Source of the DNA: Ureibacillus sp.
Lineage (GTDB): Bacteria; Bacillota; Bacilli; Bacillales_A; Planococcaceae
NCBI GenBank assembly: GCA_031178355.1
Contig: JAPSJC010000016.1
Coordinates: 1-36,153 of the forward strand
Direction of reading: 5' to 3'
Length of the DNA: 36,153 bases
Positions 10,085 to 25,243 of the stretch are shown piece by piece. The translations under genes were made by a program, and so were the position numbers. Numbering within the stretch: the stretch's first letter is position 1; the number at the start of each line of letters is the position of its first letter. The notes below the pieces were generated by a model that had not been told where the DNA came from, made no database searches, and saw only the letters and a program-made list of their open reading frames with translations.

Positions 10085-10144
10085 TCTTAAAGAGTTTCAA
10101 TTTGTTTATAACCATCCAATGTATCTCTTTTTTCACCATCCATT
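10085..10144 (-). promoter_or_regulatory. MocR-type direct-repeat operator, site A
   Basis: Plus-strand text shows ACCATCCAAT (10111-10120) and ACCATCCATT (10135-10144), start points 24 bp apart. Read on the minus strand, the proximal repeat ends 19 bp before TTAAGA (10085-10090), a poor -10. It would drive transcription toward the decarboxylase-deoC pair. Confidence 0.6.
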
Positions 10145-10154
10145 TACCACGAAA

Positions 10155-10186
10155 AGGAAAAGAATCATGAACAATTCATGATTCTT
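10155..10186 (-). terminator. Intrinsic terminator of the MocR gene
   Basis: A perfect 12-bp stem (10160-10171 with 10175-10186) with a 3-base loop is followed on the minus strand by TTTCCTTTT. It lies about 30 bases behind the MocR stop codon. Confidence 0.85.
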
Positions 10187-10214
10187 AAGTAAGTTTGAGA
10201 ATAATTATAGTTGT

Positions 10215-11645
10215 TTAAATAAATTGAAGTGCTTCTGCAAACCGTTTAATACCTTCATCAATTGATTTTGCATCTTCCCTAGCAAAAGTAAAGCGTACAT
10301 AATTTTTGTTAGACCCCATAGTTGAACCAGGTACATAGATTATGCCCCTTTTAATGGACTCCTCTAGTAATTGCATTTCATTATAGTCTTTTTTAATTTT
10401 AACCCATATATGAATGCCGCCCTGTGGAATGGAGAATTCTACCTGATCCTTTAAATAAAAATTAAGACTTGCAACAATTTGATTTCTCCGTTTTTCCAAT
10501 TTTTTTATTAATCTTTTAATATGAGAATGAAAATTTTCAGAATCCATAAAATCATTAGCAATCCATTGTGTAAAGCTTGAATGACCAAAGTCAATTTGTT
10601 GTTTTGCGTCAGATAATCTTTCTATTACTGAACTTGGTCCAATAATCCAGCCAATCCTTAACCCGGAAGCAACAACTTTTGACAAAGAGCTGATATATAA
10701 AACATTACCGTTAACGTCCATTGATTTAAGTGTAGAAGTTTTTTCTCCGGTAAAAGACGTTAAACTATATGGATCGTCTTCTACTACAGGAATACCATGT
10801 TCAGACGATATCTCTAAAATAGCTTTGCGTTGTTTTTCATTCAATAGAGAACCTGTAGGGTTTTGAAAATCGGGATTTAAAAAAATCATTCGAATTCGAT
10901 GTTTTTTATATAACGACTTTATATCTTCCGGATTTATACCATCCTGATTCACAGGTAAATAATAAACCTTTAAACCAGCTGATTTAAAAATTGGGAGATT
11001 ATAAGTATAAGACGGGTCTTCTATCGCTACAGCATCTCCGGGCTTTAACAAACACTGGACGACTAAGTGTAAAGCTTGTTGTGCACCAGAAGTAATGAGT
11101 ATTGAAGAAGGAATCGTTTCAATACCTCTAAATTTTTTTACATGGCTAGTCAAGGTATTTCTTAGTATATCGTTACCTTGCGGATGATCATATCCTAAAC
11201 TTCCTATATATGAACGTGACGAAGTTATTTCCCGTAAGAAATTCTTTGGAAATAAATCTTCTGACAACTCTCCGCTAGCTAAATTAATTAGTTTATGTCC
11301 AACGGCTTCTTTCCTTATCCTTTGCGTAACGGGTAAGTTTGGCAAAAATGAACCTGCCTCAATATACCTATTCCAGCTTGGAATACGTTTTTTGGTAATC
11401 CCCCATATATCGGTACTAATGGTAGTCCCGCTTCCTCTAGTTCTTTGAATGAGTCCATTAGCTTCTAGTTCATCATATGCAGCAACTACTGTGCTCCTAT
11501 TTACATTCAGTTCCTTTGCTAGATACCTTTCAGATGGTAAAGGTTTATCAGGTGGAAATGTACCATCTTCTATTCCATTTTCTATATATTCAGCAAGTTG
11601 TTTATATATAGCCTTTTTTGCTTTTCTTTCTGGTTTCCAATCCAT
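10215..11645 (-). CDS. MocR/GabR-type regulator (GntR head, aminotransferase body)
   Basis: The 476-residue protein joins an N-terminal GntR winged helix-turn-helix (about 12-70, with PLPSERYLAKELNVNRSTVV) to a fold-type I aminotransferase domain (about 115-476). The PLP lysine is Lys323 in SSLSKVVASGLRIGW; the DDPYS aspartate motif is present. MocR proteins bind PLP and usually an amine or amino acid and act on direct-repeat operators. The start ATG at 11645 lies 8 bases after GGAG. A 24-bp-spaced direct repeat precedes its own promoter and recurs in front of the decarboxylase, PAP2, TrpF-like and aminotransferase operons, so I infer that it controls all of them and itself. Ligand unknown. 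Confidence 0.9.
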   Translation of the reverse strand: MDWKPERKAKKAIYKQLAEYIENGIEDGTFPPDKPLPSERYLAKELNVNRSTVVAAYDELEANGLIQRTRGSGTTISTDIWGITKKRIPSWNRYIEAGSFLPNLPVTQRIRKEAVGHKLINLASGELSEDLFPKNFLREITSSRSYIGSLGYDHPQGNDILRNTLTSHVKKFRGIETIPSSILITSGAQQALHLVVQCLLKPGDAVAIEDPSYTYNLPIFKSAGLKVYYLPVNQDGINPEDIKSLYKKHRIRMIFLNPDFQNPTGSLLNEKQRKAILEISSEHGIPVVEDDPYSLTSFTGEKTSTLKSMDVNGNVLYISSLSKVVASGLRIGWIIGPSSVIERLSDAKQQIDFGHSSFTQWIANDFMDSENFHSHIKRLIKKLEKRRNQIVASLNFYLKDQVEFSIPQGGIHIWVKIKKDYNEMQLLEESIKRGIIYVPGSTMGSNKNYVRFTFAREDAKSIDEGIKRFAEALQFI

Positions 11646-11692
11646 CTTTAACACTCCATACATCCTAATTAGTAATTCATTAAAATTATTAT

Positions 11693-11752
11693 ATTTTAAT
11701 CAATTGCGCCCATACATAACCATCCAATCATCAAATATTTTAACCATCCATT
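11693..11752 (-). promoter_or_regulatory. MocR autoregulatory operator and promoter
   Basis: ACCATCCAAT (11719-11728) and ACCATCCATT (11743-11752) are 24 bp apart. On the minus strand the proximal repeat ends 19 bp before a TAAAAT -10 (11693-11698), and the region of the -35 overlaps the end of the repeat and has no consensus hexamer. This layout fits an activator that replaces the -35. Confidence 0.75.
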
Positions 11753-12109
11753 TTATATTTTAGTCCCCTTTCAAGAAATCATTTCATGCACAAAACCTTT
11801 TGTAGTAATGATTCTTCCATATTAAATCTTAATTAATTTTAACCTAATTTTATTTTCTCGTTTTAGAACATTTTGTGATACATTCGATATTTGCTTGCCT
11901 TTCAAATTTTGAGGAACTAATATGAAAATCGATTGTGTATCCTGTAATACACGAACCAATGATTAGCCTATGAAACTTCTAAGATTACTTGAAAGGGGCA
12001 TGCCTATGAAAAAGATAAAGATAATTTATTCTCACTAGTTCAATTTTTAGTTTTAACATAGCAACTTATTTTTAATTATTCACTTAAATGTAAGGGAAGG
12101 AGTATCTAT
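11753..12109. other. Intergenic region before qoxA
   Basis: The 350 bases hold the qox promoter, which I cannot place firmly. A small inverted repeat GTGTAT-N6-ATACAC (11935-11952) is a possible regulator site. A 10-codon frame with a start at about 12003 (MPMKKIKIIYSH) ends at once and is probably not a gene. The qoxA ribosome site is GGAAGGAG at about 12094-12101. Confidence 0.4.
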
Positions 12110-13039
12110 ATGAAAATCAAATTTCCTTTTTTAGGTTCAATGCTAGCGCTTGTTACTTTTCTTGTAGGTTGTGAACCATTAATGGTTTTGAATCCGAAAG
12201 GTCCAATGGCTGCAAGACAAGCAAGTGACATCATGTTATCTATTGGCATTATGACAATAGTTGTCATTGTTGTGCTGGTTATTTTAACCTTTATCTTATT
12301 CAAGTTCCGTGCTTCAAAACAACCAAACGACTATGAACCACCTCATGTTGAGGCGAATATTTGGGTAGAAGTGATATGTATAGGGATTCCAATACTAATT
12401 GTTGCATATCTGTCTTTTGTTTCAGTTCAAAGTAACTATATTGTAGAATCTGCACCGACTGGTTATGAAAATGAAAAACCGTTAGTTATCTATGCTTCTT
12501 CTTCTGACTGGAAATGGCACTTCAGTTACCCTGAACAAGGTATTGAAACAGTTAACTACTTATATATACCAACGGACAGACCACTTGAATTTAAACTATA
12601 TTCACATGGTCCAATTACAAGTTTCTGGATTCCTCAACTTGGTGGACAAAAATATGCAATGGCCGATATGGTGACAACTTTACACTTAGCTGCAGATGTT
12701 CCAGGGGAATATATGGGACGTAATGCAAACTTCAGCGGTAAAGGATTCGCAGAAAATATATTCAATGTTACAGCAATGTCTCAAAAAGAATTTGATGAAT
12801 GGGTTGAAGAAGTTCATGAAAGAGCAGAACCTTTAACTGAAGATGAATTTAATAAATTATTAGAACCAGGTCATTTAGGACAAATGACGTTTACTGGTAC
12901 ACATTTAGAATTTAGTCCAGCTCCTGAACATAACCACGGTTTGGACATTGACGATCTAGAATCAAATCATATTGATCATACTTCTCATGATAGTCAAACA
13001 GATTCAACAAACATAGAAACTGACCACAGCGGTCATTAA
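12110..13039 (+). CDS. qoxA: Cytochrome aa3 quinol oxidase subunit II
   Basis: QoxA is the quinol-type subunit II of the heme-copper oxidase. The 309-residue product has a lipoprotein signal ending LVGC (Cys21), two membrane spans (about 41-66 and 85-107), and an extracytoplasmic cupredoxin-like domain. The CuA ligands of cytochrome c oxidases are absent, as expected for a quinol oxidase. The C-terminus is an unusual acidic, histidine-rich tail (about ten His in the last 40 residues, ending TDHSGH) that could bind metal. First gene of qoxABCD; 58 bases precede qoxB. Confidence 0.96.
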   Translation: MKIKFPFLGSMLALVTFLVGCEPLMVLNPKGPMAARQASDIMLSIGIMTIVVIVVLVILTFILFKFRASKQPNDYEPPHVEANIWVEVICIGIPILIVAYLSFVSVQSNYIVESAPTGYENEKPLVIYASSSDWKWHFSYPEQGIETVNYLYIPTDRPLEFKLYSHGPITSFWIPQLGGQKYAMADMVTTLHLAADVPGEYMGRNANFSGKGFAENIFNVTAMSQKEFDEWVEEVHERAEPLTEDEFNKLLEPGHLGQMTFTGTHLEFSPAPEHNHGLDIDDLESNHIDHTSHDSQTDSTNIETDHSGH

Positions 13040-13097
13040 TTTTAAATGAAAAACTAGATTCATAGACTAATCTTTGCTCTTGAAAGGAGATACTAAG

Positions 13098-15080
13098 ATG
13101 GAATTCTTTGAACGATTTGCCATTCCTCACCCTAGCCCTATGATTTACGCTTCAATGGTGGCGATAGCGTTAGTATCAATTGGGATTTTAGTTGGGATCA
13201 CATATTTCAAAAAATGGGGTTATCTATGGCATGAATGGTTTACAAGCGTTGACCATAAAAAAATAGGGATTATGTATTTAATCTCAGCCCTAATTATGCT
13301 TTTCCGTGGTGGTGCAGATGCAATCTTAATGCGTGCACAGCTATCTTCACCGGAAATGAAATTATTAGACGCACAGCATTATAATGAGATTTTTACAACT
13401 CATGGAGTTGTCATGATATTTTTTGTGGTGATGCCATTTATCTTCGCCTTCATGAACTTAATCGTACCTTTACAAATTGGAGGACGTGACGTTGCATTTC
13501 CACGCTTAAATGCACTAAGCTTTTGGTTATTCTTTGCCGGAGCGATGTTATTTAATATTTCATTTGTTATCGGTGGTTCTCCAGATGCAGGTTGGACATC
13601 TTACTTCCCTCTTGCAGGAAATGATTTCAGTACATCAGTGGGAACAAACTATTACATGTTAGCTCTACAAATCTCAGGGATTGGTTCCTTAATGACTGGG
13701 ATTAACATGATTACAACAATCTTAAAAATGAGAGCACCAGGAATGACTCTAATGAAACTGCCAATGTTTACTTGGTCTGCTTTAATTACAAATGTCATTA
13801 TCGTATTTGCATTCCCAGTATTAACAATTGCTTTATTAATGGGGACAACTGACCGTTTATTTGGAACAAACTTCTTTACAACGGGTAATGGCGGTATGGA
13901 TATGCTTTGGGCAAACTTCTTCTGGGTCTGGGGACATCCAGAGGTTTACATTTTAATCTTACCTGCATTCGGTCTTTATAGTGAAATTATTTCAACGTTC
14001 TCTGGCCGAAACCTATATGGTTACAAATCAATGGTTGGATCTATGGTATTAATTTCCCTACTTTCATTCTTAGTTTGGACACATCACTTTTTTACAATGG
14101 GTCAAGGTGCATTTACAAACAGTATTTTCTCCATTACTACAATGGCGATTGCAGTTCCAACTGGGGTAAAGATCTTTAACTGGTTATTTACGATGTGGAA
14201 GGGAAAAATCCGTTTCACAGTGCCAATGCTATATTCAGTAGGATTTATCCCATTGTTTACAATCGGTGGGGTTACAGGGGTTATGCTTGCGATGTCAGCA
14301 GCAGACTATCAATACCATAATACAATGTTCTTAGTAGCTCACTTCCATAATACAATAATTCCTGGTGTGCTATTCGCATTGTTAGCTGGACTAACTTACT
14401 ACTGGCCAAAATTCTTTGGCTTCATGTTGAATGAAAAAATCGGTAAATCGACTTTCTGGTTAGTAGCTGTTGGTTTCGTACTTACCTTCTTCCCAATGTA
14501 CATCACTGGTTTAGACGGTCAAGCACGCCGTATGTACACTTACTCAGAGGAAACTGGCTTTGGTCCATTAAACATGTTGTCATTCGTAGGCTCTGCATTA
14601 TTTGCAATTGGCTTTGTAACACTCGTTTATAACCTTTACTATAGTTTCAAAAACTCACCGCGTAATATCGGTAGTGACCCGTGGGATGCACGTTCAGTAG
14701 AATGGGCTACTCATACACCAATACCAGAATACAACTTTGCAAGACTCCCACAAGTTGCTTCAAGTGAAGCTTTCTGGGATATGAAGAAAAAAGGTCACAA
14801 ATTATTTACTGGTGAACTAAAAGAGATCCATATGCCAAATAATAGCGGCGTTCCATTCGTCCTGGGGATTATCTTCTTTATCGCAGGGTTCTCATTCGTC
14901 TTTGCGTTATGGGTACCTGCAGTAGTTGCAGTAATCGGTATATTTGTTTGTATGGCACTACGTTCATTCGAACAAGATCATGGACGCCATATTAATGTTA
15001 AAGAAATTAAAGAGATAGAAGCACAATACGAGGAGGTGCCGGGTAATGAAGATCGATCACACACAACCACTCGAGTATAG
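13098..15080 (+). CDS. qoxB: Cytochrome aa3 quinol oxidase subunit I
   Basis: QoxB reduces oxygen at the heme a3-CuB centre and pumps protons. The 660-residue polytopic protein has FTTHGVVMIF (low-spin heme His), WVWGHPEVYILILP (CuB His cross-linked to Tyr), WTHHFF (two CuB His) and AHFHNTIIPG (axial heme ligands). The start is the ATG at 13098, behind GAAAGGAGA; the longer frame from 13074 begins inside that leader. It overlaps qoxC by 35 bases, indicating translational coupling. Confidence 0.97.
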   Translation: MEFFERFAIPHPSPMIYASMVAIALVSIGILVGITYFKKWGYLWHEWFTSVDHKKIGIMYLISALIMLFRGGADAILMRAQLSSPEMKLLDAQHYNEIFTTHGVVMIFFVVMPFIFAFMNLIVPLQIGGRDVAFPRLNALSFWLFFAGAMLFNISFVIGGSPDAGWTSYFPLAGNDFSTSVGTNYYMLALQISGIGSLMTGINMITTILKMRAPGMTLMKLPMFTWSALITNVIIVFAFPVLTIALLMGTTDRLFGTNFFTTGNGGMDMLWANFFWVWGHPEVYILILPAFGLYSEIISTFSGRNLYGYKSMVGSMVLISLLSFLVWTHHFFTMGQGAFTNSIFSITTMAIAVPTGVKIFNWLFTMWKGKIRFTVPMLYSVGFIPLFTIGGVTGVMLAMSAADYQYHNTMFLVAHFHNTIIPGVLFALLAGLTYYWPKFFGFMLNEKIGKSTFWLVAVGFVLTFFPMYITGLDGQARRMYTYSEETGFGPLNMLSFVGSALFAIGFVTLVYNLYYSFKNSPRNIGSDPWDARSVEWATHTPIPEYNFARLPQVASSEAFWDMKKKGHKLFTGELKEIHMPNNSGVPFVLGIIFFIAGFSFVFALWVPAVVAVIGIFVCMALRSFEQDHGRHINVKEIKEIEAQYEEVPGNEDRSHTTTRV

Positions 15081-15645
15081 TACTGATCAAAATCAGTTAA
15101 ATATTTTAGGTTTCTGGATATTCCTTGGCGCTGAAATTATGTTGTTCGCTACCCTTTTCACGGCCTACTTCACATTAGAAGGTCGTACAGGTAGCGGCCC
15201 TACTCCAGCAGATATTTTTGAAATTACACCCGTGCTGATTGAAACGTTTGTATTATTAACAAGTAGTTTTACGATTGGGCTTGGCGTTCATGCAATGAGA
15301 CTTGGTCGAAAAAATGCGATGTTAACGTTCTTTGGTATTACGCTACTTCTTGGATTAGGTTTCCTCGGTGTAGAGATCTATGAATTCACGCATTATTACC
15401 ATGTTGGGGCAACTTATCAAACCAGTGCATTTACCGCTGCATTGTTAACAACATTAGGGACACATGGTGCCCACGTTACATTAGGTTTATTCTGGGGATT
15501 ATTCATCATCCTACAAGTGAAAAAGCGTGGTTTAACACCTGAAAATGCAAATAAATCATTTATCTTCTCTCTTTACTGGCATTTCTTAGATGTTGTTTGG
15601 ATCTTTATCTTCAGCTTCATCTATCTGAAAGGAATGATGATGTAA
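15046..15645 (+). CDS. qoxC: Cytochrome aa3 quinol oxidase subunit III
   Basis: The 199-residue protein has five predicted membrane spans and the subunit III landmarks LGFWIFLGAEIMLFATLF near the start, the TLGTHGAHVTLGL helix and YWHFLDVVWIFIF near the end. The start is set by GAGGAGG 8 bases upstream inside the end of qoxB. Structural subunit of the quinol oxidase, helping to stabilise subunit I. Confidence 0.96.
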   Translation: MKIDHTQPLEYSTDQNQLNILGFWIFLGAEIMLFATLFTAYFTLEGRTGSGPTPADIFEITPVLIETFVLLTSSFTIGLGVHAMRLGRKNAMLTFFGITLLLGLGFLGVEIYEFTHYYHVGATYQTSAFTAALLTTLGTHGAHVTLGLFWGLFIILQVKKRGLTPENANKSFIFSLYWHFLDVVWIFIFSFIYLKGMMM

Positions 15646-15646
15646 T

Positions 15647-15928
15647 ATGAAAGAATTATTTCCTGCTAAACAGGTGATGGGCTTTGTCTTTTCATTGATT
15701 CTAACTGCGGTTGCATTACTTGTTTACTTTACTAATATGTCATTCGCAGTAGGCATGACGATCCTGTTAGTAACTGCTTTTATCCAAGCATTTCTACAGC
15801 TTGTTGTATTCATGCACGCTGGTGAATCTAAAGATAGCTCAGCTATTTATACAAATATTGTGTATGGTATCATTCTTGCAGCTATAACTATTTTCGGTTC
15901 ATTATTGATTCTGATTTGGGATATGTAA
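15647..15928 (+). CDS. qoxD: Cytochrome aa3 quinol oxidase subunit IV
   Basis: The 93-residue protein has three membrane spans and the subunit IV motif AFIQAFLQLVVFMH. It begins one base after the qoxC stop. Last gene of the oxidase operon, followed at once by a terminator. Confidence 0.94.
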   Translation: MKELFPAKQVMGFVFSLILTAVALLVYFTNMSFAVGMTILLVTAFIQAFLQLVVFMHAGESKDSSAIYTNIVYGIILAAITIFGSLLILIWDM

Positions 15929-15937
15929 AAAAATATA

Positions 15938-15970
15938 AAGCTTGAGAGTGGTTCTCAAGCTTTTTTTAAA
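15938..15970 (+). terminator. Terminator of qoxABCD
   Basis: An 11-bp stem (15938-15948 with 15953-15963), loop of four, then a run of T. It lies 10 bases behind qoxD. Confidence 0.92.
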
Positions 15971-16065
15971 GAGTAAGATATTTTTTGTGATGTTATTAAA
16001 AACTTAGTGTACAGCATTAGGATTTGCGCTATTTACAAGGGAATTAATAAAAAGGGGTTAATTAT

Positions 16066-16653
16066 ATGCGAAAGCACTTATGGTGTACTACTTTTTTACT
16101 CCTTATCCTCGTACTTGTTGGTTGTGGACAAGGGATTAAAAATCCTCTTAATTGGGAAATAGAGAATTTATCAGCTGTTGATGAAGAGGGCCAAGAAATG
16201 GAGCTGGATGATTTAAAAGGAAAAGTGTGGATTGCTGATTTTATCTTTACAAATTGTGCAACAGTTTGTCCACCAATGACTTTTAATATGACAGATCTCC
16301 AAGGACTATTAAAAGAAAAAGGGTTAGATGTAGAAATTGTTTCATTCAGTGTAGACCCAGCTATTGACACACCTGATAAGCTAAAAGAGTATGTGTTAAA
16401 TTTTAATGCTGACTTATCAAACTGGCACTTATTAACGGGTTACACACAAGAATTCATTGAATCTTATGCCAAAAATAATTTTAAAACCATTGTAAAAAAA
16501 CCAGAAACAGATAATCAAGTTATACACGGTACATCCTTTTATCTAATAGATAAAGAAGGGAAAATAGTAAAACAATATGATGGGATTAACGTTCCCTTCG
16601 ATGAAATTATCAATGATGTTAGATTACTAATCTCAAGTGGAGTGAACTTATGA
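16066..16653 (+). CDS. Sco1/SenC-type cytochrome oxidase assembly lipoprotein
   Basis: Sco proteins deliver copper to, or keep reduced the thiols of, heme-copper oxidases. The 195-residue protein has a lipoprotein signal (LVGC, Cys20), a thioredoxin fold, the CATVC metal-thiol motif (Cys64, Cys68) and the third ligand His154 (VIHGTSF). Behind qox it probably serves oxidase assembly. That is slightly odd, because the quinol oxidase QoxA lacks the CuA site that Bacillus Sco (YpmQ) is known for, so it may act on CuB, on another oxidase, or in thiol redox control. It has its own leader behind the qox terminator. Confidence 0.92.
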   Translation: MRKHLWCTTFLLLILVLVGCGQGIKNPLNWEIENLSAVDEEGQEMELDDLKGKVWIADFIFTNCATVCPPMTFNMTDLQGLLKEKGLDVEIVSFSVDPAIDTPDKLKEYVLNFNADLSNWHLLTGYTQEFIESYAKNNFKTIVKKPETDNQVIHGTSFYLIDKEGKIVKQYDGINVPFDEIINDVRLLISSGVNL

Positions 16654-16982
16654 GGAAAAACAAAAAAAGATTATTATGGTTAGTTGTATTTATTTTTATA
16701 ATGGCTATTGCTAGTTTATTTATCCGAAGAGAAACTCATCCGTCCGGAGACACAAGGATTATTCTAGAACATACTTATAAGACTTATATTGCCCCTTTAT
16801 GTTTTGAAACTGCAAATGCAACCAATTTTCTTGGTGAATCTACTCTACAAAATGCACAAGATTTAGAGTATAAACCACACTCTTCTTGTACAGAGAATGC
16901 TTTAAAAGCGGAAAATGACACACTTTTTTTAAGCATTTTAAAAGAAATAGGGATTATAGATAAAAAGTGGGATAACTGGTAG
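16650..16982 (+). CDS. Small membrane-anchored protein paired with Sco
   Basis: The 110-residue product overlaps the sco gene by four bases (ATGA), so the two are translationally coupled. It has one N-terminal anchor (about 8-24) after a very basic start, and an outer domain with two cysteines (PLCFETANATNF and SSCTENAL). The cysteines could form a disulfide that Sco reduces. I do not recognise a named family, and the function is not known. Confidence 0.75.
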   Translation: MRKNKKRLLWLVVFIFIMAIASLFIRRETHPSGDTRIILEHTYKTYIAPLCFETANATNFLGESTLQNAQDLEYKPHSSCTENALKAENDTLFLSILKEIGIIDKKWDNW

Positions 16983-16990
16983 ATAAATGT

Positions 16991-17032
16991 TGGTTGACCA
17001 GAATTAGTTACTTAATTAATTCTAGTCAACCA
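16991..17032. terminator. Bidirectional terminator between sco and PAP2 genes
   Basis: A long inverted repeat (TGGTTGAC... paired with ...GTCAACCA, about 15 bp with one mismatch) lies between the convergent genes ending at 16982 and 17079, flanked by A/T-rich DNA. Confidence 0.8.
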
Positions 17033-17078
17033 TTAATTTACTTCTCATTCATAAAGACGTTCGTTTAAATGTCCTTTT

Positions 17079-17924
17079 CTAATGACCATGCCCTGATGGC
17101 CCTTGCTGAATTTCTTCATATTGTAATGGCGCATTATCATCTTTCAAGCTCTCAATAATATCAGAAGATACTGCCTTTGCTAATTGTAAGGACGCTTCAT
17201 GATCACTTCTAAAATGGACACCTGCTAACATTCTTGAATATGTAGCTTCCTCTGCAGTTCCTTCCAACATCTCCATTTCGTTAGGGAAAATATAAGACAA
17301 AATATAAGCAACAGTCCAAGCTGTAGATGCATGACTATTCGGATATGCAGGATGAGATGGGACTGGAACGTCCTCAACTAACTTTATTGAAGGTTCTAAT
17401 TCAGTTGGTCTTTTCCGTAAATATTCATATTTTTGTCCCCATGCTGCAGTAGTAGTCGTATAGATTGCCCCATTGACAATAGCATGTAACCTTGCGGCTT
17501 CAGGTATACTTAAGTTATACTTTATTATTAATTCCTCTGTGATGGCAAACCAATTTGTGTTTGGACTTGGTGTTTTAGCCCAGTGTTTAACGATTTCTTC
17601 CTCTTCCTCTGTACGTTCGTTTGTTATCTTAACCAGTTCTTCTAATTCTTGTATTGTTTTATCTGCATCATCTTGAAGCGGTGCATCCACTTTATACGTA
17701 TTCCCGTCTTTAAATTCAAGTGCGCTCCAATTACCTGCTGTAGGTGCCATTGGGGTGTTATGAGTCCATCCCATTCCTTCATTACTTATATGTTCACTAT
17801 TCTGCATGGCTTCAGTATCAATTAGCGTCTCCTGACTTGTCTCTTGTTCTGAATTACATGCTGATAATACTAAAACTATCACGAAAATTAATGGTAAGAT
17901 TAGTTGATATTTTTGTTCCTTCAT
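17079..17924 (-). CDS. PAP2 / vanadium haloperoxidase-like lipoprotein phosphatase
   Basis: The 281-residue lipoprotein (VLSAC, Cys23) has the acid-phosphatase/haloperoxidase signature: K...KRP (Arg172), PAYPNSHAS (193-200, where the usual PSGH has Asn-Ser before His) and SRMLAGVHFRSD (Ser230-Arg231, His237, Asp241). It is likely an extracytoplasmic phosphatase; haloperoxidase activity cannot be excluded from sequence. The ATG at 17924 lies 8 bases after AAGGAG. A MocR-type direct repeat and a TATTAT -10 stand upstream, so it is predicted to be co-regulated with the amine cluster. Ends with a His-containing tail (GPSGHGH). Confidence 0.85.
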   Translation of the reverse strand: MKEQKYQLILPLIFVIVLVLSACNSEQETSQETLIDTEAMQNSEHISNEGMGWTHNTPMAPTAGNWSALEFKDGNTYKVDAPLQDDADKTIQELEELVKITNERTEEEEEIVKHWAKTPSPNTNWFAITEELIIKYNLSIPEAARLHAIVNGAIYTTTTAAWGQKYEYLRKRPTELEPSIKLVEDVPVPSHPAYPNSHASTAWTVAYILSYIFPNEMEMLEGTAEEATYSRMLAGVHFRSDHEASLQLAKAVSSDIIESLKDDNAPLQYEEIQQGPSGHGH

Positions 17925-18024
17925 GTTGTCCACTCCTTTTTTAATAGTACGAACACTAATACCTATTTACGCGTTTTTTGTCCAACCATTTTTTAGGTAT
18001 GTGAATTATTTGTACCCTACTACT

Positions 18025-18085
18025 ATAATAATGGATTTAGATGTAACATTAATCATCCACTTTAACAATTATTTACTCATCCATT
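18025..18085 (-). promoter_or_regulatory. MocR-type direct-repeat operator, site B (PAP2 gene)
   Basis: ATCATCCACT (18052-18061) and CTCATCCATT (18076-18085) are 24 bp apart. On the minus strand the proximal repeat ends 20 bp before TATTAT (18025-18030). The PAP2 lipoprotein gene is the first gene downstream. Confidence 0.7.
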
Positions 18086-18152
18086 GACTCATAAAAGTGT
18101 ATAAGTAATAAAGCATCATACCATTAATTCCCTAGTAAATTTATTGAAGTCT

Positions 18153-19307
18153 TTATTCATAAAGCTTTTCTAATAAAAATCGTGCACTTTCTATATTTAC
18201 TTCACATGGTGAATTTCCAGCAAATCTTTCTGATACAACACTTTCGGCATTACTTAGTAATTCTACTATGCTAATATTTAAATCACTAAATGGGCTCATT
18301 CCTAAAACATTATCTCTAAAATGACGAAAAGCCTTTGCCGTAATATTTCCAATTTCTAAATCGGTAGAGTTTTCAGGATATGCTGCACCTAATAACAAAC
18401 CAATTTCTTTGACTTTTTTAGATTCAACAGGAGAAATATATTCCAAAACTCCTGGTAAAGCATAGGAACAAGCCATTCCATGTGGAATATGATATTTAGA
18501 ACCTACTATATGAGCGATAGAATGACCTAAATGAGTACCGGCATTATTCAGCATCCAACCAGCAAGTGCAGCAGCAACCATCATTCGTTCTCTTGCTTCT
18601 CTATCATTCCCATCCTTTACAGCCCTTGGTAAATACTTCACAATTAAATACATAACCTTTTCACATATAGCATCGGTTATTGGACTCGATAAATTAGATG
18701 TATAACCTTCTGCTGCATGAGCAAACGCATCTAAGCCAGTCATAATTGTCATGTGTTTTGGTAAGGTTATGACTAAATCTGGATTTAATATTGCGTATTC
18801 ACTAACAGCATGATCAGACAGCACGGCTAATTTAGACTGCATACTACTATCCGTTACGATTAAGGCATTTGACAATTCACTGCCTGTGCCTGAAGTAGTT
18901 GGAACTGCAATCATGTCATAACATGGTTTTATTTCTTTATGTGGATTAACATAGTCCGTAATCTTTCCACCATTCACCCTTAAAATATTAATTCCTCTAC
19001 CAACATCAATAGTACTTCCTCCACCAATAGCTATAATGCAATCACATTGATTCGAATTAAATAATGAAGCTCCTTCATCTACCACTTCTGTTGGTGGATC
19101 AGATACCACTTTATCATATACTACATACTCAAGATTAAATTTCTGAAATTGCACTAGTAAACTTTTTATAATTGGTACAGAACTTATAAATGACCCCATA
19201 ACTATAAATGGTTTACGATACTTTTTTTCTTCTAAAATAGATAAAATAGCATTTGATAAATTATCCGTTACAGTTACTTTTACATTTTGAATTAGTTTAT
19301 AATCCAT
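18153..19307 (-). CDS. Iron-containing alcohol dehydrogenase (group III)
   Basis: The 384-residue NAD(P)-dependent enzyme interconverts an alcohol and an aldehyde or ketone. It has the nucleotide motif GGGST (95-99), PTTSGTGSE (136-144) and the four iron ligands Asp193, His197 (GLDAFAHAAEG), His262 and His276 (HLGHSIAH...YHIPHG). The start follows AAGGAGG. It lies 26 bases behind the TrpF-like gene, forming a two-gene operon under MocR-type site C. The true substrate is unknown; the context suggests an aldehyde in amine or amino-acid metabolism. Confidence 0.92.
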   Translation of the reverse strand: MDYKLIQNVKVTVTDNLSNAILSILEEKKYRKPFIVMGSFISSVPIIKSLLVQFQKFNLEYVVYDKVVSDPPTEVVDEGASLFNSNQCDCIIAIGGGSTIDVGRGINILRVNGGKITDYVNPHKEIKPCYDMIAVPTTSGTGSELSNALIVTDSSMQSKLAVLSDHAVSEYAILNPDLVITLPKHMTIMTGLDAFAHAAEGYTSNLSSPITDAICEKVMYLIVKYLPRAVKDGNDREARERMMVAAALAGWMLNNAGTHLGHSIAHIVGSKYHIPHGMACSYALPGVLEYISPVESKKVKEIGLLLGAAYPENSTDLEIGNITAKAFRHFRDNVLGMSPFSDLNISIVELLSNAESVVSERFAGNSPCEVNIESARFLLEKLYE

Positions 19308-19333
19308 TTAAAAACCTCCTTGGAGAATTTGAT

Positions 19334-20029
19334 TTATTTACCTTCCAATTCACGAGCTGCCTTGTCTGCTCTTTCACAAAACTCTCTTACCTTTTGTATA
19401 TCTTTTTCCATATGCCCACCTTCATACTTAATGCTAGTTTTCGTTAATGAATCCACACCATATGGTCTAATTTTTTTGATTGCTTCTTCTACATTATCAG
19501 GACCTAATCCACCAGCGATAATAACAGGAATATCCACACTACTTACAATTTCAGTATCAATGGACCAATCATGTGTCTCTCCACTAGCTCCAATTCCAGT
19601 ATCTTCAGCTAACCCTGAGTCCGTTAATAAATAGTCGCAAAACTCTGCGTAATGTTTCGCCCGATTTATGGCTTCTGGTCCATCGATTAAAATTGCTTGC
19701 ATGAGCGCCGTATTTGGGCATAACTCTTTTAAATGCTTTGCAAATTCAGGGGTAGCACTATATTCCATACCTGCTATATGAAGAATATCGGGTTGAATCT
19801 GTTGGGAGATATTTAGTATTTCATTCGTGTCATTAGTTAACATTATGGCAACAGACTTAACATGTCTTCTTTTTGCTTCTATAAAAATTTTTTCAACTAC
19901 ATCTAACTGTACCCTATGAGCTGGTACTCCTCCGTTTTGCATAGGTACTAAACCAATATGATCTGCCCCTGCTTCCATTGTCTTAATACTTTCTTCATAG
20001 GTTATTAAGGAATATATTTGTTTAATCAT
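19334..20029 (-). CDS. TrpF-like (phosphoribosylanthranilate isomerase family) barrel protein
   Basis: The 231-residue TIM-barrel resembles TrpF: AGADHIGLV near the start, LLTDSG (Asp137, position of the catalytic Asp), GASGETHDW (147-155) and PVIIAGGLGPDNVEEAI. The catalytic cysteine of TrpF, in the KxCG motif of the first strand, is missing: here it reads KQIYS. No other trp genes are near. So it is probably not a tryptophan enzyme but a paralogue with another isomerase or lyase activity. The ATG at 20029 follows GAGGG; a GTG at 20044 touches that site. It leads the operon with the alcohol dehydrogenase and has a MocR-type operator upstream. Confidence 0.8.
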   Translation of the reverse strand: MIKQIYSLITYEESIKTMEAGADHIGLVPMQNGGVPAHRVQLDVVEKIFIEAKRRHVKSVAIMLTNDTNEILNISQQIQPDILHIAGMEYSATPEFAKHLKELCPNTALMQAILIDGPEAINRAKHYAEFCDYLLTDSGLAEDTGIGASGETHDWSIDTEIVSSVDIPVIIAGGLGPDNVEEAIKKIRPYGVDSLTKTSIKYEGGHMEKDIQKVREFCERADKAARELEGK

Positions 20030-20115
20030 TCTCTTTTCCCTCACTTATCTAAATGTTGAAACTATCAAATTAAATTTGACATAATTTTTTTAGGATTCTA
20101 TAACCTAAGCCTTTT

Positions 20116-20175
20116 ATTATAATGAGGTTGAATTATTTTAAATCATCCACTTTAATATATTTTTAACCGTCCATT
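20116..20175 (-). promoter_or_regulatory. MocR-type direct-repeat operator, site C (trpF-like/ADH operon)
   Basis: ATCATCCACT (20142-20151) and ACCGTCCATT (20166-20175) are 24 bp apart. The proximal repeat ends 19 bp before a perfect TATAAT (20116-20121) on the minus strand, with no consensus -35. Confidence 0.75.
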
Positions 20176-20187
20176 TACACCAGGAAC

Positions 20188-20226
20188 ATAAAAAAAGAGA
20201 ATCATGAATGAAAACATGAATCTCTT
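20188..20226 (-). terminator. Terminator behind the nspC-like gene
   Basis: A 12-bp stem with one mismatch (20195-20206 with 20215-20226) is followed on the minus strand by a run of seven T. It separates the aminotransferase operon from site C. Confidence 0.85.
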
Positions 20227-20345
20227 CTTTAACCAATCGAGTCTAGTGAACCTCAAAAAAATTTTAGTAGTATATTAAGGAATGTTTAGAATCTTAATAA
20301 TCCAATAATTTTAGAGTTAGTGGGGATTATTCAAAAACCAAAAAT

Positions 20346-21473
20346 TTATGCCAATCTCATTTTAAAATCTTGATAACTAAATTGTTGTGTAATATTGTAA
20401 TCTCCATTCTTATCTTTTATGCAGATTGCGGGTAGTGCCATCCCATTAAAAGTTGTCGTTTTTACCATTGTGTAAATTGCCATATCCTCAAAAATAAGAC
20501 GATCCCCATCCATTAATGGTCGATCAAAAGAATAATCTCCAATTACATCACCTGTTAGACAAGTTTGTCCGGTAAGTCGATACATAAATGGCTTCTCTCC
20601 AACTTCCCCTGACCCTATAAGAGGAGGTCGATACGGCATTTCTAACACGTCTGGCATATGACATGTTGCAGAAGTGTCTAGAATTGCAATGTCAATACCG
20701 TTTTTATGTGTATCAAGTACTGATGTAACTAGATAGCCTGCATTCAGAGCAATAGCTTCTCCTGGCTCAAGGTATACTTCTAAACTATATTTATTCTGCA
20801 TTTGTTTAATACATGATTCTAATAAAGAAATATCATAATCTTCCCTTGTAATGTGGTGACCACCGCCAAAATTAATCCATTCCATTTGTGACAGCCATTG
20901 GCCAAACTTTTCTTCCACAGCATCGAGCGTTATTTTTAGATCATCAGAGTTTTGCTGACAAAGTGTGTGAAAATGCAAACCTGAAACTCCATCAAGTAAA
21001 TCAGGACGAAAATTCTCTAGCGTTTCACCGAATCTAGAACCTGGTGAGCATGGATCATAAATTGCATGTCCAATTTGAGTAGAGCATTCTGGATTAATAC
21101 GTAAGCCTACTTTTTTACCAGCTTGAAGGGCTTTATCTTTAAATTTCTCTAATTGAGAGAAAGAATTAAAGATAATATGATCACAAATATTTACAATCTC
21201 ATCAATTTCATCTTCTCGATAAGCAGGTGCAAAAATATGATTTTCCTTCCCCATCTCTTCGTATCCAAGGCGGGCCTCGTATAAGCCGCTTGCAGTTGTA
21301 CCACTTAAATACTCTCCAATGAGAGGATAGAGCTTATACATTGAGAATGCTTTTTGTGCTAAAACAATTTTACACCCTGTACGCTCCACCACCCCATGTA
21401 GTATTTTAAGATTTTTTTCCACTAGACCTTCATCGATTACAAAACATGGTGTAGGTAATTCTTCAAATTTCAT
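20346..21473 (-). CDS. nspC: Carboxynorspermidine/carboxyspermidine decarboxylase family protein
   Basis: NspC removes CO2 from carboxy(nor)spermidine in the alternative polyamine route. The 375-residue fold-type III PLP enzyme has the PLP lysine Lys41 (LAQKAFSMYKLYPL), LHFHTLCQQNSDD, FGGGHHITRE, EPGEAI, CHMPDVLEMPYRPP and the catalytic-cysteine motif TCLTGDVIGDYSF, all strongly as in the family. Yet no carboxyspermidine dehydrogenase, its normal partner, is seen in the window. It lies 140 bases behind the ChdC gene with a hairpin between. Either polyamine synthesis is completed elsewhere, or the enzyme acts on a related carboxylated amine made by the neighbouring aminotransferases. Confidence 0.92.
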   Translation of the reverse strand: MKFEELPTPCFVIDEGLVEKNLKILHGVVERTGCKIVLAQKAFSMYKLYPLIGEYLSGTTASGLYEARLGYEEMGKENHIFAPAYREDEIDEIVNICDHIIFNSFSQLEKFKDKALQAGKKVGLRINPECSTQIGHAIYDPCSPGSRFGETLENFRPDLLDGVSGLHFHTLCQQNSDDLKITLDAVEEKFGQWLSQMEWINFGGGHHITREDYDISLLESCIKQMQNKYSLEVYLEPGEAIALNAGYLVTSVLDTHKNGIDIAILDTSATCHMPDVLEMPYRPPLIGSGEVGEKPFMYRLTGQTCLTGDVIGDYSFDRPLMDGDRLIFEDMAIYTMVKTTTFNGMALPAICIKDKNGDYNITQQFSYQDFKMRLA

Positions 21474-21537
21474 TTTTTGTTCACCAGCTTTTAAATAAAG
21501 CTTCCTTTCTTTCTATTAGCACGAGTACTTATGTGAA

Positions 21538-21568
21538 AAAAGAAGAGACAAAGTTGCATTCCTGTCTC
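21538..21568 (-). terminator. Hairpin between chdC and nspC-like genes
   Basis: GAGACA (21545-21550) pairs with TGTCTC (21563-21568); the minus strand continues with TTCTTTTTT. It looks like a weak terminator that may reduce nspC expression within the operon. Confidence 0.5.
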
Positions 21569-21613
21569 AAATTTTTTTTAATCAAAATCACTATCTAATA
21601 TTATGAAAAAATA

Positions 21614-22357
21614 TCATAATTCTAAAAGTTGATCTAATTGTTCATTAAGCAAGTATCTTCCAATGTAAAAGGAACCAAATTCCCCAAAACGAGCACTTAC
21701 TTCATCAAAACGCATTTCATAAATTAACTTTTTGAAGTAAATTGGATCGTCAGCAAATAGTGCAACTCCCCATTCATAATCATCCAGTCCAACAGAACCT
21801 AGAATAATTTGTTTTACTTTACCAGCATACTGGCGACCAATTAAGCTATGGCTCCGCATCATATGATTACGTTCTTCGCTAGATAGCATATACCAATTAT
21901 TCACTTCACTACGAAGCTTGTTCATCGGATAAAAACAAATATACTCCTTATTTGGAATTGCTGTATATAATCGTGCTCTTATTTCAGGTCTACTATAAGG
22001 ATCTTCCCCTTTAGGAAGGTAATTACTAAGTTCAATCACTGATACATACGAAGTCGTCTGCACTGTAAACTCTGCAAACTTTGTCTTATTAAATGCTAAT
22101 TCTATTTGTGCTAATTCCTTAAGGGTTGGTCGTAAAAACATGAACATAATGTCTGCTTTATGTCCTAAAATTTGAAAGATGGCATGGTCACCTTCAGCAT
22201 TTTGCTCATAAACAGTCCATGTGTTTAATAGATCAGTTAGCTCCTCAAGTACTTTTAGACGTTGTTCTACACTTAATAGCTTCCACCTCGTCCAATCTAT
22301 TTTGCGAAAATCGTTAAAGCAGTACCATCCTTCAAGTGTTTCTGTATTATTAGACAC
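21614..22357 (-). CDS. chdC: Coproheme decarboxylase (ChdC/HemQ)
   Basis: ChdC converts coproheme III to heme b in the Firmicute heme pathway. The 247-residue chlorite-dismutase-family protein has the catalytic tyrosine and lysine in YPMNKLR (Tyr143, Lys147), the proximal His170 (MMRSHSLIGR), and the SVGLDDYEWGV and FGEFGSFYIGR segments. Nothing needed for catalysis is missing. It starts 4 bases after the stop of the upstream aminotransferase gene, so the two are tightly coupled. In Bacillus it usually neighbours pta; here it sits in an amine-type operon, either by relocation or as a second copy with a new role. It may also link to heme supply for the qox oxidase. Confidence 0.9.
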   Translation of the reverse strand: MSNNTETLEGWYCFNDFRKIDWTRWKLLSVEQRLKVLEELTDLLNTWTVYEQNAEGDHAIFQILGHKADIMFMFLRPTLKELAQIELAFNKTKFAEFTVQTTSYVSVIELSNYLPKGEDPYSRPEIRARLYTAIPNKEYICFYPMNKLRSEVNNWYMLSSEERNHMMRSHSLIGRQYAGKVKQIILGSVGLDDYEWGVALFADDPIYFKKLIYEMRFDEVSARFGEFGSFYIGRYLLNEQLDQLLEL

Positions 22358-22361
22358 AAGT

Positions 22362-23663
22362 TCACACTCCCTTTGTTAGAAAATTATCAATACCTTGATA
22401 AATAAGTTCAAAAAGCTCTTCTAGGTCTTCTTCTTCGACACAAGAGAAGGCAATCCTTAAATCTGTTGAATTTATTGCTAAAGTACCTATTCCGTATTCA
22501 TCTAGCAAGTGAATTCTAAGCTTTTCTGCATCAACTGTTAAAAATTTTAAGCATATAAAATATCCGGAATTAAAAGGATATAGTGTCCACAAATCCCTAT
22601 ATTTTTCTTTACAAACAATCTCTTTGACCTTGATTGCCCGATGACACATTATTTCATATTTTTGCTGTTTTTCTTTTTCATACTCATTAGAAATTAATGA
22701 TTGTAAAATAATCGTTTGTGACAGATGGGAACTGTTAGACAATACTGCTCTTATAAGCCCCATTGTTTTTTGTTCTAATACTTCTAATACTTCAAAAGAT
22801 TTAGATGCAAATGTAATAAAGCCTACTCTAAGTCCCCAAACATAACTTTCTTTCGTTGCTCCATCAATTTTTATGGGTAAAATGTTCGGATGAAGTTCTG
22901 CTAATCTACCAAATAATGATTCTTTTATGGAGTCTTCATAGAACAATCCAAAGTATGCATCATCAAGGATAATCACCAGTTTTATTCCTGATTCCGCTGC
23001 TTCCAAAATGGCTTGAACAATCCCATGAGCTTCTTCTTCACTAGGTGTATAACCTGTTGGGTTATTTGGAAAATTTAAAATGACTACTGCCTTTCCGACA
23101 GCCTGTTGTTCAAGTAGACGTTCTTTAAGTCCTTCCACATTAAATTGTTTATTTTTATCAAAAAGCTCGAATGTTTTTAAACAACCACCTCTACGAATAT
23201 GAAAGATTGATTCATAATTCTCCCAATATTTATCGGGAAGAATAATACAATCGTCTTCTTCTACAAATAGGTCAGCAGCAATACTTAATCCATGAGTAAT
23301 ACCATTCGTTACGATTGGAATTCCGAATCGTTTATTATTCAATGATGGATTTTCCCTTAATAGTTTAAGGCTCCACTTTTCTCGTAACTCAAATTTTCCA
23401 GGAGTAGGTGCATATGTATAAACATCCTCTGGAGAATATCCTCTTAATTTTTCTTGAATATGATTAAAGTGCATTGGAACATATTGTTCAGTGGCAATTC
23501 CAATTGTTGCGTTAAAATGATATGCATTTTTACTTGCATCATTCCCTTGACTAAGAATCCCCTTAGGATAAAATAATTTTTTCCCAAGATTTGACAACAT
23601 GTGATAAATAGTCGGATTATATTTGATTAAGTCATCATTTAATTTCTTTGCAAGCTCGTTCAT
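22362..23663 (-). CDS. Class I/II aminotransferase-like PLP enzyme
   Basis: The 433-residue fold-type I PLP protein has FPNNPTG (198-204), the aspartate motif DDAYFG (234-239) and the PLP lysine Lys271 (DGATKESYVWGLRVGF). It is longer at the N-terminus than typical aspartate aminotransferases. The best guess is an amino-acid aminotransferase, but a decarboxylase or lyase of the same fold is possible. It lies 25 bases behind the HisC-like gene and 4 bases before chdC, in the operon driven from site D1. Confidence 0.85.
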   Translation of the reverse strand: MNELAKKLNDDLIKYNPTIYHMLSNLGKKLFYPKGILSQGNDASKNAYHFNATIGIATEQYVPMHFNHIQEKLRGYSPEDVYTYAPTPGKFELREKWSLKLLRENPSLNNKRFGIPIVTNGITHGLSIAADLFVEEDDCIILPDKYWENYESIFHIRRGGCLKTFELFDKNKQFNVEGLKERLLEQQAVGKAVVILNFPNNPTGYTPSEEEAHGIVQAILEAAESGIKLVIILDDAYFGLFYEDSIKESLFGRLAELHPNILPIKIDGATKESYVWGLRVGFITFASKSFEVLEVLEQKTMGLIRAVLSNSSHLSQTIILQSLISNEYEKEKQQKYEIMCHRAIKVKEIVCKEKYRDLWTLYPFNSGYFICLKFLTVDAEKLRIHLLDEYGIGTLAINSTDLRIAFSCVEEEDLEELFELIYQGIDNFLTKGV

Positions 23664-23688
23664 TTTGTTTCTCCTCTTAAGCTTCTAA

Positions 23689-24795
23689 TTACTTTTTTGC
23701 TAAAATAGTACAAATTGCAACAATTAATTCGCTATTTTCTTCAGGAGTGCCAATTGATATTCGAATATGCTCCGGCAATCCCCAAGTGTCTCCGTATCGA
23801 ACAATGACACCATGATTGAGAAGCTCCTCGTATATTTCTTTGGCTTCTGCACCAAATTCAACGAGAATAAAGTTACTCATGCTTTCTGTATATTTTAAGC
23901 CTATCGCGTTAAAGAATTTATAAAACAATTCCCGTCCTTCAGAATTGATTTGTATAGATTTCGTTACATGTTCTTCATCTGTAATAGCAGCGGCGGCAGC
24001 AGTTTGAGCTAAACTATTAACATTAAACGGTTCTTTTACCCGTAAAATACTTTGAATAATTGGCTCAGAGGCAACTCCAAAACCTACTCTAATCCCTGCA
24101 AGTCCATAAATTTTAGAAAACGTTTGTAACACAATGATTGGATAACCAGAACGAACAAATTCTAAACCGTCTGTATAATCTTCATTCGTTGCAAAATGAC
24201 GATAAGCACTATCAAAAACAACTAAAATATTCTCAGGTAGTGATGTTAATAATGTTTTTAATTTAGATTTTTGTAGGTATGTACCCGTCGGATTATTTGG
24301 AGAACAAATATAAATCAATTTCGTTTTTTCTGTAACTGCAGATAAAATTGAATCAATAGTAAACTGATAGTTGTGATCAAGTGGTACGGGAACTACCTTT
24401 GCACCCATTAAATGTGCCCCAAAATCATACTCACTAAAAGAAGGACTTGGAACAATAATCTCATCTCCAGATGTAAGAAACGTCTCTGATACTAGAGTTA
24501 TTAACTCGTCCCCCCCATTTGTGATAATGAGCTCATTTGAGGATATAGACAAACGGGACGCAATAACATTTTTCAGTTTCACAGCATGAGCGTCAGGGTA
24601 TCTATTAATATCATTAACAGCATTTTTTATAGCCGTAAGTGCTTTTGGTGATGGGCCAAGAGGATTTTCATTTGAAGCTAATTTAATAACCTTTTTTAAA
24701 CCTAGTTCCTTTTGTACTTCCCATAATGATTTACCTGGTGTATAGGGTTTAATTGCTTCTAATTCTTTACGGTGAATGACTCTATTTCTATTCAT
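23689..24795 (-). CDS. Histidinol-phosphate aminotransferase-like protein
   Basis: The 368-residue protein is of the HisC type: SNENPLGPSP (41-50), CSPNNPTGTY, FDSAYRHF (195-201) and the PLP lysine Lys228 (QTFSKIYGLAGIRVGF). No histidine genes are nearby. HisC-like enzymes also act on phenylalanine/tyrosine and in natural-product pathways, so its substrate is open. The ATG at 24795 follows GGAGGGAAGGG; a longer frame to 24810 starts on the ribosome site. First gene of the operon with the second aminotransferase, chdC and nspC; MocR-type site D1 lies 140 bases upstream. Confidence 0.88.
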   Translation of the reverse strand: MNRNRVIHRKELEAIKPYTPGKSLWEVQKELGLKKVIKLASNENPLGPSPKALTAIKNAVNDINRYPDAHAVKLKNVIASRLSISSNELIITNGGDELITLVSETFLTSGDEIIVPSPSFSEYDFGAHLMGAKVVPVPLDHNYQFTIDSILSAVTEKTKLIYICSPNNPTGTYLQKSKLKTLLTSLPENILVVFDSAYRHFATNEDYTDGLEFVRSGYPIIVLQTFSKIYGLAGIRVGFGVASEPIIQSILRVKEPFNVNSLAQTAAAAAITDEEHVTKSIQINSEGRELFYKFFNAIGLKYTESMSNFILVEFGAEAKEIYEELLNHGVIVRYGDTWGLPEHIRISIGTPEENSELIVAICTILAKK

Positions 24796-24910
24796 AACCC
24801 TTCCCTCCATTTCTTTTCATTCAATAGTTAAATATCTTTCTATAAAGAGAATTGTGAGTTCACCCCATATATGAAAGCACTACTCTTAGAAATTATTTTT
24901 CTACTTTATT

Positions 24911-24970
24911 ATCATAATGAATTTCAATTTTATAGAACCATCCAATCTAATAGATTTTTAACCATCCATT
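24911..24970 (-). promoter_or_regulatory. MocR-type direct-repeat operator, site D1 (aminotransferase operon)
   Basis: ACCATCCAAT (24937-24946) and ACCATCCATT (24961-24970) are 24 bp apart. The proximal repeat ends 19 bp before TATGAT (24911-24916) on the minus strand. Confidence 0.75.
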
Positions 24971-25016: not shown

Positions 25017-25064
25017 AATTGATGGTTAGATTATTAAAATTGGATGGTTGAAGTTATATAACCT
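25017..25064 (+). promoter_or_regulatory. Divergent MocR-type operator, site D2
   Basis: The same motif in plus orientation: AATTGATGGT (25017-25026) and ATTGGATGGT (25039-25048), here 22 bp apart, with a further weak copy (TTGATGAT) just upstream. It faces the mocR remnant at 25104. The altered spacing fits loss of selection after its gene decayed. Confidence 0.55.
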
Positions 25065-25193: not shown

Positions 25194-25243
25194 ATCCGTG
25201 ACAGAATTAGTACATTCGAACATTCATGAAAGGAAAAAAGTTT

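Follow-up and report, generated by a model that had tools for sequence, protein, structure and literature searches.

MocR-type regulators have been linked to cyanide in Pseudomonas, and we describe here a candidate regulon of this type in Bacillales. It was found in a 36,153-nt contig of a Ureibacillus sp. (JAPSJC010000016.1, analysed at full length and hereafter called the window), in which pairs of direct repeats with starts 24 bp apart mark five promoters, including that of a mocR gene. Among the closest described systems, in the parts of the reports drawn on here and below, is the cio cluster of Pseudomonas pseudoalcaligenes/oleovorans CECT5344, which comprises mocR, cioAB and the genes for SerC, HisC, ArgD, DapA, MetF, CysM, CysI, MaeB, a glucose transporter and Nit4 (PMC11049912). 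Proteins of this cluster are induced by cyanide-containing waste (PMC11049912, PMC8567248, PMC5333837, PMC6989483), and the cluster is constitutive in a MocR mutant, a result cited as unpublished data in PMC8567248.

In Pseudomonas aeruginosa, MpaR (PA4132) is a MocR-type activator for which expression of ccoN4 needs the predicted pyridoxal 5'-phosphate (PLP) lysine. Its full activity requires cyanide, PLP reacts with cyanide, and the authors hypothesise that cyanide-modified PLP is the ligand (PMC10790758). MocR regulons with direct-repeat operators are already a known kind: those described by Suvorova and Rodionov in 2016, including the PdxR, TauR and GabR regulons, have operators of this form, mostly with a TGT or TGG core (PMC5320631).

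A 24-bp direct-repeat pair at promoters

Five direct-repeat pairs with a start spacing of 24 bp are present in the window, at the positions given by the original prediction (Table 1), and all five are oriented toward a minus-strand gene, so that the uniform orientation proposed for them also holds. Read on the minus strand, i.e. in the direction of the downstream genes, inspection of the sequence gives AATGGATGGT-N14-ATTGGATGGT or near variants. There are five occurrences of TGGAYGR-N17-TGGAYGR in the window, whereas 1000 shuffled versions of it that preserve the dinucleotide composition averaged 0.002 and never had more than one. When spacings from 8 to 59 were scanned, TGGAYGR pairs were found in the window at 24 alone. 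A scan of the organism's own genome assembly (2.83 Mb, 76% complete), which had been proposed as a check, used a looser, variable-gap pattern and returned 7 places, 5 of which are the window pairs, vs. none for the reversed control.

A -10-like hexamer of the form TAnnAT follows every one of the five pairs. The hexamer past the proximal repeat is therefore where it had been anticipated, but it is found at five pairs rather than four, and the gap is 20-21 bp instead of 19-20 bp. One further pair, starting at 25017 and 25039, was considered as an additional site and rejected; it was left uncounted because its spacing is 22 bp, the nearby TATAAT is just 15 bp away, and a matrix built from the 145 sites described below misses it.

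The wider set comprises 145 distinct sites, part of which come from stretches fetched because of a pattern match. Their profile is AA(G/A)TGGATGG(T)-n-AAAA-...-AA(T/G)TGGATGGTT, followed by a TATAAT-like hexamer. TAnnnT is found at +53 to +56, i.e. 20-21 bp past the proximal repeat, in 140 of the 145 sites. At 16-18 bp from this -10, TTGACA is mismatched at three or four positions in 105 of the 140, at two in 32, at one in two and at five in one. A coding flag is attached to 3 of the 145 sites, the other 142 being non-coding. The layout is activator-like and suggests a protein that substitutes for the -35 element; the layout originally described, i.e. a good -10 without a -35, as expected for an activator, recurs at most of these sites. 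The pairs might instead be copies of a mobile or sporadic element without any regulatory role. Nothing beyond the repetition itself favours such an element and, because the promoter geometry is fixed (with -10-like hexamers at the same distance in nearly all sites, and almost none in coding sequence), we regard it as very unlikely, to the point of being scarcely credible.

Linkage of the repeat to MocR

The MocR protein of the window has a GntR-type winged helix-turn-helix domain (PF00392, positions 20-82) and a fold-type-I aminotransferase-like domain (PF00155, positions 124-474), and GabR structures are among its matches in the PDB. The predicted PLP lysine, K329, is kept in 77/77 rows of the orthologue alignment, as is Y299, with some of the rows coming from overlapping loci.

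Scanning of genome contigs yielded 74 loci, of which 73 contain a MocR relative of 59-86% identity; the remaining, distant hit (L081) was dropped. Within the 73 mocR loci, 113 pairs with a score of at least 22 have a spacing of 24, vs. at most 7 at any other spacing between 11 and 59. Where mocR is intact (72 loci), a site lies within 700 bp upstream of it in 46 cases, within 300 bp past its stop codon in 43, and in one or the other position in 65. Furthermore, the density of sites within 1 kb of mocR is 33-fold that of the remaining locus sequence. All 44 genomes searched as a whole, which cover 46 of the 73 loci, contain a match (103 matches vs. 4 for the reversed control), and with a relaxed pattern 52/52 genomes do so (150 matches vs. 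17 for the control); some of the 103 and 150 matches, judged by eye, resemble chance hits within coding sequence.

Among 121 genomes, namely the organism's own and its relatives, 13 (the own included) have a MocR that is at least 74% identical, and in each of these 13 a site is found within 105 bp of the matched stretch. In genomes with a MocR at 54-58% identity, a site lies beside it in two of three. Homologues of mocR also occur on plasmids of B. badius (73%), N. taxi (60%) and P. cellulositrophicus (51%), next to which no recognised target gene was found in annotation or lists of open reading frames. The proposal of a MocR regulon is well supported by this comparison, i.e. by the linkage in loci and genomes, by the fixed geometry and by the pairs marking the same target families in distant genera (see below). 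We are highly confident in predicting that the five window promoters are controlled by the MocR encoded at 10215-11663.

The sites could also belong to another regulator and merely travel with mocR, an example being the response regulator of the OmpR type encoded at 25226-25933. The diverged pair precedes its gene, and two other loci have such a gene close to mocR. However, these are 2 of the 73 named loci (about 10 kb on each side), as against a site beside mocR in 65 of 72, and we give another regulator a very slim chance. The response regulator itself was rejected as the binder: its domain is of the OmpR type and it fails to track the sites.

For MocR as the regulator, we propose that a dimer would bind the two head-to-tail 10-bp boxes (consensus AAnTGGATGGT), which are 24 bp apart. 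The proximal box would reach the -35 position, where MocR may recruit RNA polymerase to a good -10 that has no -35. MocR would thereby activate its own gene together with several operons nearby and elsewhere in the genome.

Target families and the candidate signal

Operon genes behind the 142 non-coding sites are headed by mocR (50) and the YfmQ family (31), followed by DeoC (11), Orn/Lys/Arg decarboxylase (8), nitrilase (7), the PRK08637 aminotransferase (7), ChdC (6) and HisC (5), while a BenE-type transporter (3), the PAP2 lipoprotein (3) and NspC (2) are rarer. DapA, CysJ with CysI, a cytochrome bd pair and a zinc alcohol dehydrogenase were each found behind a site in one genome. An aldehyde dehydrogenase is present once as a whole gene and once as a short piece, and SCO1 once, with a second case in locus L144. 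One of ten recurrent families supplies the first gene behind 104 of the 142 sites. The run hisC-aminotransferase-decarboxylase-deoC is complete in L078 and L121, with a nitrilase gene adjoining. In addition, some targets are far from mocR: in Lysinibacillus sphaericus, about 1.4 Mb separate mocR from a site with deoC directly behind it, and in Gottfriedia solisilvae the distance is about 73 kb.

Other genes and loci were seen among the sites. A conserved small protein is encoded in Neobacillus, Peribacillus and others; it is about 65-75 residues long, contains two hydrophobic stretches and carries a motif similar to GK(G/S)DENYSSSTKRNxTNLTLIY. Its gene gave 24 rows from 21 distinct places, mostly between a site and mocR. 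In L013, L015, L022, L068, L145, L148 and others, it lies either there or behind a site; the L145 copy has no Pfam match. By eye, a site and this gene directly follow cydABCD in Peribacillus loiseleuriae (L145) and Paenibacillus sp. FJAT-29882 (L146). In Cytobacillus citreus, a decayed second cluster (L144, contig C11 of G008, the genome that also holds L016) contains qox, mocR, remnants of DeoC and nitrilase genes, and the SCO1 gene behind a site; the sites persist. At L143:7644-8042 (minus strand), a small YtkA-like gene with a relative in L142 lies behind a site; its neighbours, genes for aldehyde dehydrogenase and cytochrome bd, bear their own sites. Finally, of the sulfite reductase genes behind a site at L019:18034-21106, cysJ is seemingly truncated and cysI seemingly split.

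We compared the copies of four target enzymes in 16 genomes. HisC of the regulon type is present in five genomes (the organism's own and four at 66-80% identity), and a HisC at 34-41% in 16/16. Besides the own genome, six others have the regulon-type decarboxylase (79-86%), and G001 has it in broken form; a copy at 64-73% is present in 16/16, and the placement of a 74% copy in G030 is unsure. In the decarboxylase tree, 11 regulon rows (one gene being represented twice) and 8 others are fully separate, with a support of 100/100. For DeoC, the regulon type (73-84%) is found in nine genomes besides the own and the other copies (62-72%) in 16/16, two identity ranges that nearly touch. ChdC of the regulon type (69-82%) is in five genomes besides the own, and a ChdC at 53-60% in all but the own genome, whose 76% complete assembly yielded no further ChdC copy. 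HisC, the decarboxylase, DeoC and QoxB each have a further copy in the own genome. These other copies are presumably the housekeeping ones. The qox genes are near mocR in the window and in 14 of the 73 named loci, and the genomes carry further QoxB copies elsewhere.

When three nitrilases behind sites were compared to solved structures, two were nearest to the plant enzyme NIT4 (6i00), namely those of L041 (E 1e-99 vs. 1e-58 for the next chain) and L133 (E 2e-96 vs. 1e-53). NIT4-type enzymes act on 3-cyanoalanine (PMC8567248). A clade of close nitrilases, defined by at least 74% identity, or by 84% in the pieces of two broken copies, is present in 8 of 50 genomes with mocR and in 0 of 30 without it; 7 of these 8 lie by position inside the regulon cluster.

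Cyanide attacks imines and haem. The regulon can be read as a stress regulon that would provide conditional, cyanide-tolerant second copies of imine and PLP enzymes, namely HisC, the aminotransferase, the Orn/Lys/Arg decarboxylase and DeoC, with DapA elsewhere. It would also include the haem-handling ChdC and, elsewhere, sulfite reductase and cytochrome bd. Several genomes add a nitrilase of the NIT4 type, and a spare quinol oxidase adjoins the regulon. Cyanide is the most likely signal, and it may be sensed as its adduct with the PLP that is expected on K329. We hold cyanide to be the probable signal, with moderate confidence, and lean to the same degree toward the full statement, i.e. that this is a Gram-positive (Bacillales) cyanide-response MocR regulon acting through the repeat operator.

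It is also conceivable that MocR binds the repeats but responds to another agent that hits haem, carbonyls or PLP, such as hydroxylamine, nitric oxide, sulfide or aldehydes, in which case the nitrilase and the oxidases would be incidental. The presence of alcohol and aldehyde dehydrogenases among the targets agrees with such a signal, as does the fact that no nitrilase was found in 38 of the 50 mocR genomes. Set against this are the NIT4 type of two of the three nitrilases (the third being of another type), the position of nearly all of the close clade in the regulon cluster, and the detailed overlap with the cyanide-induced cluster of CECT5344. A signal other than cyanide is a possibility that we take seriously but consider doubtful.

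A third reading takes the regulon to be PdxR-like, sensing the level of PLP and tuning PLP-dependent enzymes and the supply of vitamin B6. The window MocR scores 341.9 against the NCBIfam PdxR model and passes its cut-off of 320, and several targets are PLP enzymes. In addition, the BenE-type transporter is the first gene behind 3 sites, and such transporters also occur in PdxR regulons of PMC5320631. However, no pdxS, pdxT, pdxK or pdxU was recognised behind the sites among the named families, a scan that covered part of the operon proteins; one site, in L121, is followed by a component of an ECF transporter whose substrate is unknown. Moreover, the haem and oxidase genes fit badly, and the other MocR of the window scores far higher as PdxR (473.8). 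A PLP-sensing regulon is unlikely on these grounds; the regulon does not look like a control of vitamin B6 synthesis. The NCBI model would probably label the window MocR a B6 regulator, and this label looks wrong. The second MocR (29844-31226, plus strand; 473.8 bits with the PdxR model) is divergent from a gene for an FMN_bind_2 protein (29098-29718, minus strand), and by sequence the two are likely a true B6-type MocR pair.

Several observations weigh against a cyanide-response regulon under MocR. We know of no function for YfmQ, the commonest target, and its structural model (mean pLDDT 78.9) has no match in the PDB at E <= 0.001. Of the 13 genomes in which MocR reaches 74% identity or more, 9 encode YfmQ, but so do 12 of 108 other genomes, none of which has such a MocR. 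At 38 of the 142 non-coding sites, there is no called gene within 750 bp or one unrelated gene. DapA, sulfite reductase and cytochrome bd are targets in a single genome each, and PAP2, the TrpF-like protein, NspC and the small membrane protein are without an evident link to cyanide. A nitrilase of any kind is found in just 12 of the 50 mocR genomes, and in 4 of the 30 without mocR; the L116 enzyme is the one that is not of the NIT4 type, and none was found in the window's own, 76% complete genome. The pair pattern matches somewhere in 32 of 105 relatives without a close MocR, and the bare pattern has some background because the reversed control matches 10 of the 121 genomes; inspected by eye, this background lies mainly within coding sequence and lacks the A-rich spacer. 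In the QoxB tree, the copies adjacent to mocR are interspersed with some distant ones and form no clade of their own, and no 24-bp site is directed toward qox in the window; the near-mocR copies need 5 changes on the tree, which speaks against a simple dedicated-oxidase story, and the spare quinol oxidase is on this evidence a neighbour rather than a proven regulon member. Finally, the MocR of CECT5344 apparently represses, whereas the Bacillales layout is activator-like, and the ccoN4 promoter of MpaR needs a short palindrome (PMC10790758), whereas the Bacillales operator is a 24-bp direct repeat.

If cyanide is indeed the signal, the regulon would account for the second hisC, chdC, deoC and decarboxylase copies in several Bacillales, and YfmQ and the small membrane protein would acquire first roles.

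Window features and comparison with known systems

The predicted sites and the genes around them are collected in Table 1. The trpF-like/alcohol dehydrogenase pair was seen behind a site in this window only. Downstream of the diverged pair, genes for an OmpR-type response regulator, a histidine kinase and a DUF4822 protein occupy 25226-28272 (plus strand), with relatives near mocR in L011 and L072. Hairpin-like inverted repeats were seen by eye at 9838-9855 and at about 10158-10190, between mocR, the site and the decarboxylase gene; they are possible terminators, one of them within a 450-nt leader. When the stretch between the site ending at 10144 and the decarboxylase gene was searched with regulon proteins for a gene remnant, the decarboxylase's own start alone matched well. 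In other genomes, apparent HisC remnants lie, by eye, between the site and the decarboxylase.

Table 1. Predicted MocR sites and annotated genes of the window.
Feature	Position	Strand	Remarks
Predicted MocR site before decarboxylase-deoC-yfmQ	10111..10144	-	-10 TAAGAT at 10084-10089
Predicted MocR site at mocR promoter	11719..11752	-	-10 TAAAAT at 11693-11698
Predicted MocR site before PAP2 lipoprotein gene	18052..18085	-	-10 TATTAT at 18025-18030
Predicted MocR site before trpF-like/Fe-ADH	20142..20175	-	-10 TATAAT at 20116-20121
Predicted MocR site before hisC2-aminotransferase-chdC2-nspC	24937..24970	-	-10 TATGAT at 24911-24916
Diverged pair upstream of response-regulator gene	25017..25048	+	from pair scan; spacing 22; function doubtful
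mocR (GntR-type HTH and aminotransferase-like domain)	10215..11663	-	K329 and Y299 invariant (see text)
YfmQ-family protein	6925..7377	-	N-terminal helices and beta-rich domain in model; commonest target besides mocR
DeoC-family aldolase, regulon copy	7466..8107	-	other copy, 66% identical, elsewhere in genome
Orn/Lys/Arg decarboxylase, regulon copy	8142..9659	-	other copy, 64% identical, elsewhere in genome
qox operon divergent from mocR	12110..15928	+	other qox on contig C60, QoxB 92% identical
SCO1/SenC protein and following small gene	16066..16982	+	relatives behind site in two other genomes (L120, L144)
PAP2-family lipoprotein	17079..17933	-	relatives behind sites in two other genomes
Iron-containing alcohol dehydrogenase	18153..19307	-	behind site at 20142..20175
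TrpF-like (PRAI-family) protein	19334..20044	-	behind site at 20142..20175
NspC-type carboxynorspermidine decarboxylase	20346..21473	-	behind site at 24937..24970
ChdC-type coproheme decarboxylase, regulon type	21614..22357	-	behind site at 24937..24970
PLP aminotransferase, PRK08637 family	22362..23663	-	behind site at 24937..24970
HisC-type aminotransferase, regulon copy	23689..24810	-	other copy, 36% identical, elsewhere in genome

With the MocR regulons of PMC5320631, the Bacillales regulon shares direct-repeat operators and, as targets, PLP enzymes and oxidases of unknown pathway. As far as the two were compared, the Bacillales regulon and the cyanide theme are absent from that paper, although the bare motif may figure in its supplement or in RegPrecise. 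No published account of this regulon was found in a literature search that covered titles, the openings of abstracts and the passages cited here. Set against the published description of MpaR and ccoN4, the shared features are a regulator of the MocR type, positive autoregulation (predicted in Bacillales), a spare terminal oxidase subunit (in Bacillales as a neighbour), and a lysine and a tyrosine at the predicted PLP site.

There is also a resemblance to the CECT5344 cluster, in which a MocR gene is likewise found beside a terminal oxidase, HisC and other aminotransferases, DapA, sulfite reductase and a 3-cyanoalanine nitrilase. In Bacillales, these families are spread over genomes: HisC is behind 5 sites, nitrilase is the first gene behind 6, DapA and CysJI are found once each, no genome has all of them, and the window has HisC only. 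Unlike the Pseudomonas cluster, the Bacillales regulon belongs to a different phylum, its neighbouring oxidase is Qox rather than CioAB, and several dispersed promoters share one common direct-repeat operator. Its ChdC, DeoC, decarboxylase and YfmQ are outside the published CECT5344 list. Taking the two systems together, we see an even chance that PLP-bound MocR proteins are cyanide sensors in two phyla, and that the Bacillales one runs a dispersed 24-bp-repeat regulon of stand-in imine and haem enzymes, with a NIT4-type nitrilase, sustaining histidine, polyamine, lysine, sulfur, haem and respiratory metabolism under cyanide. Next to that of Pseudomonas, a second system, from Gram-positive bacteria, whose operator is clear and whose gene set is defined, would render bacterial cyanide sensing directly testable.

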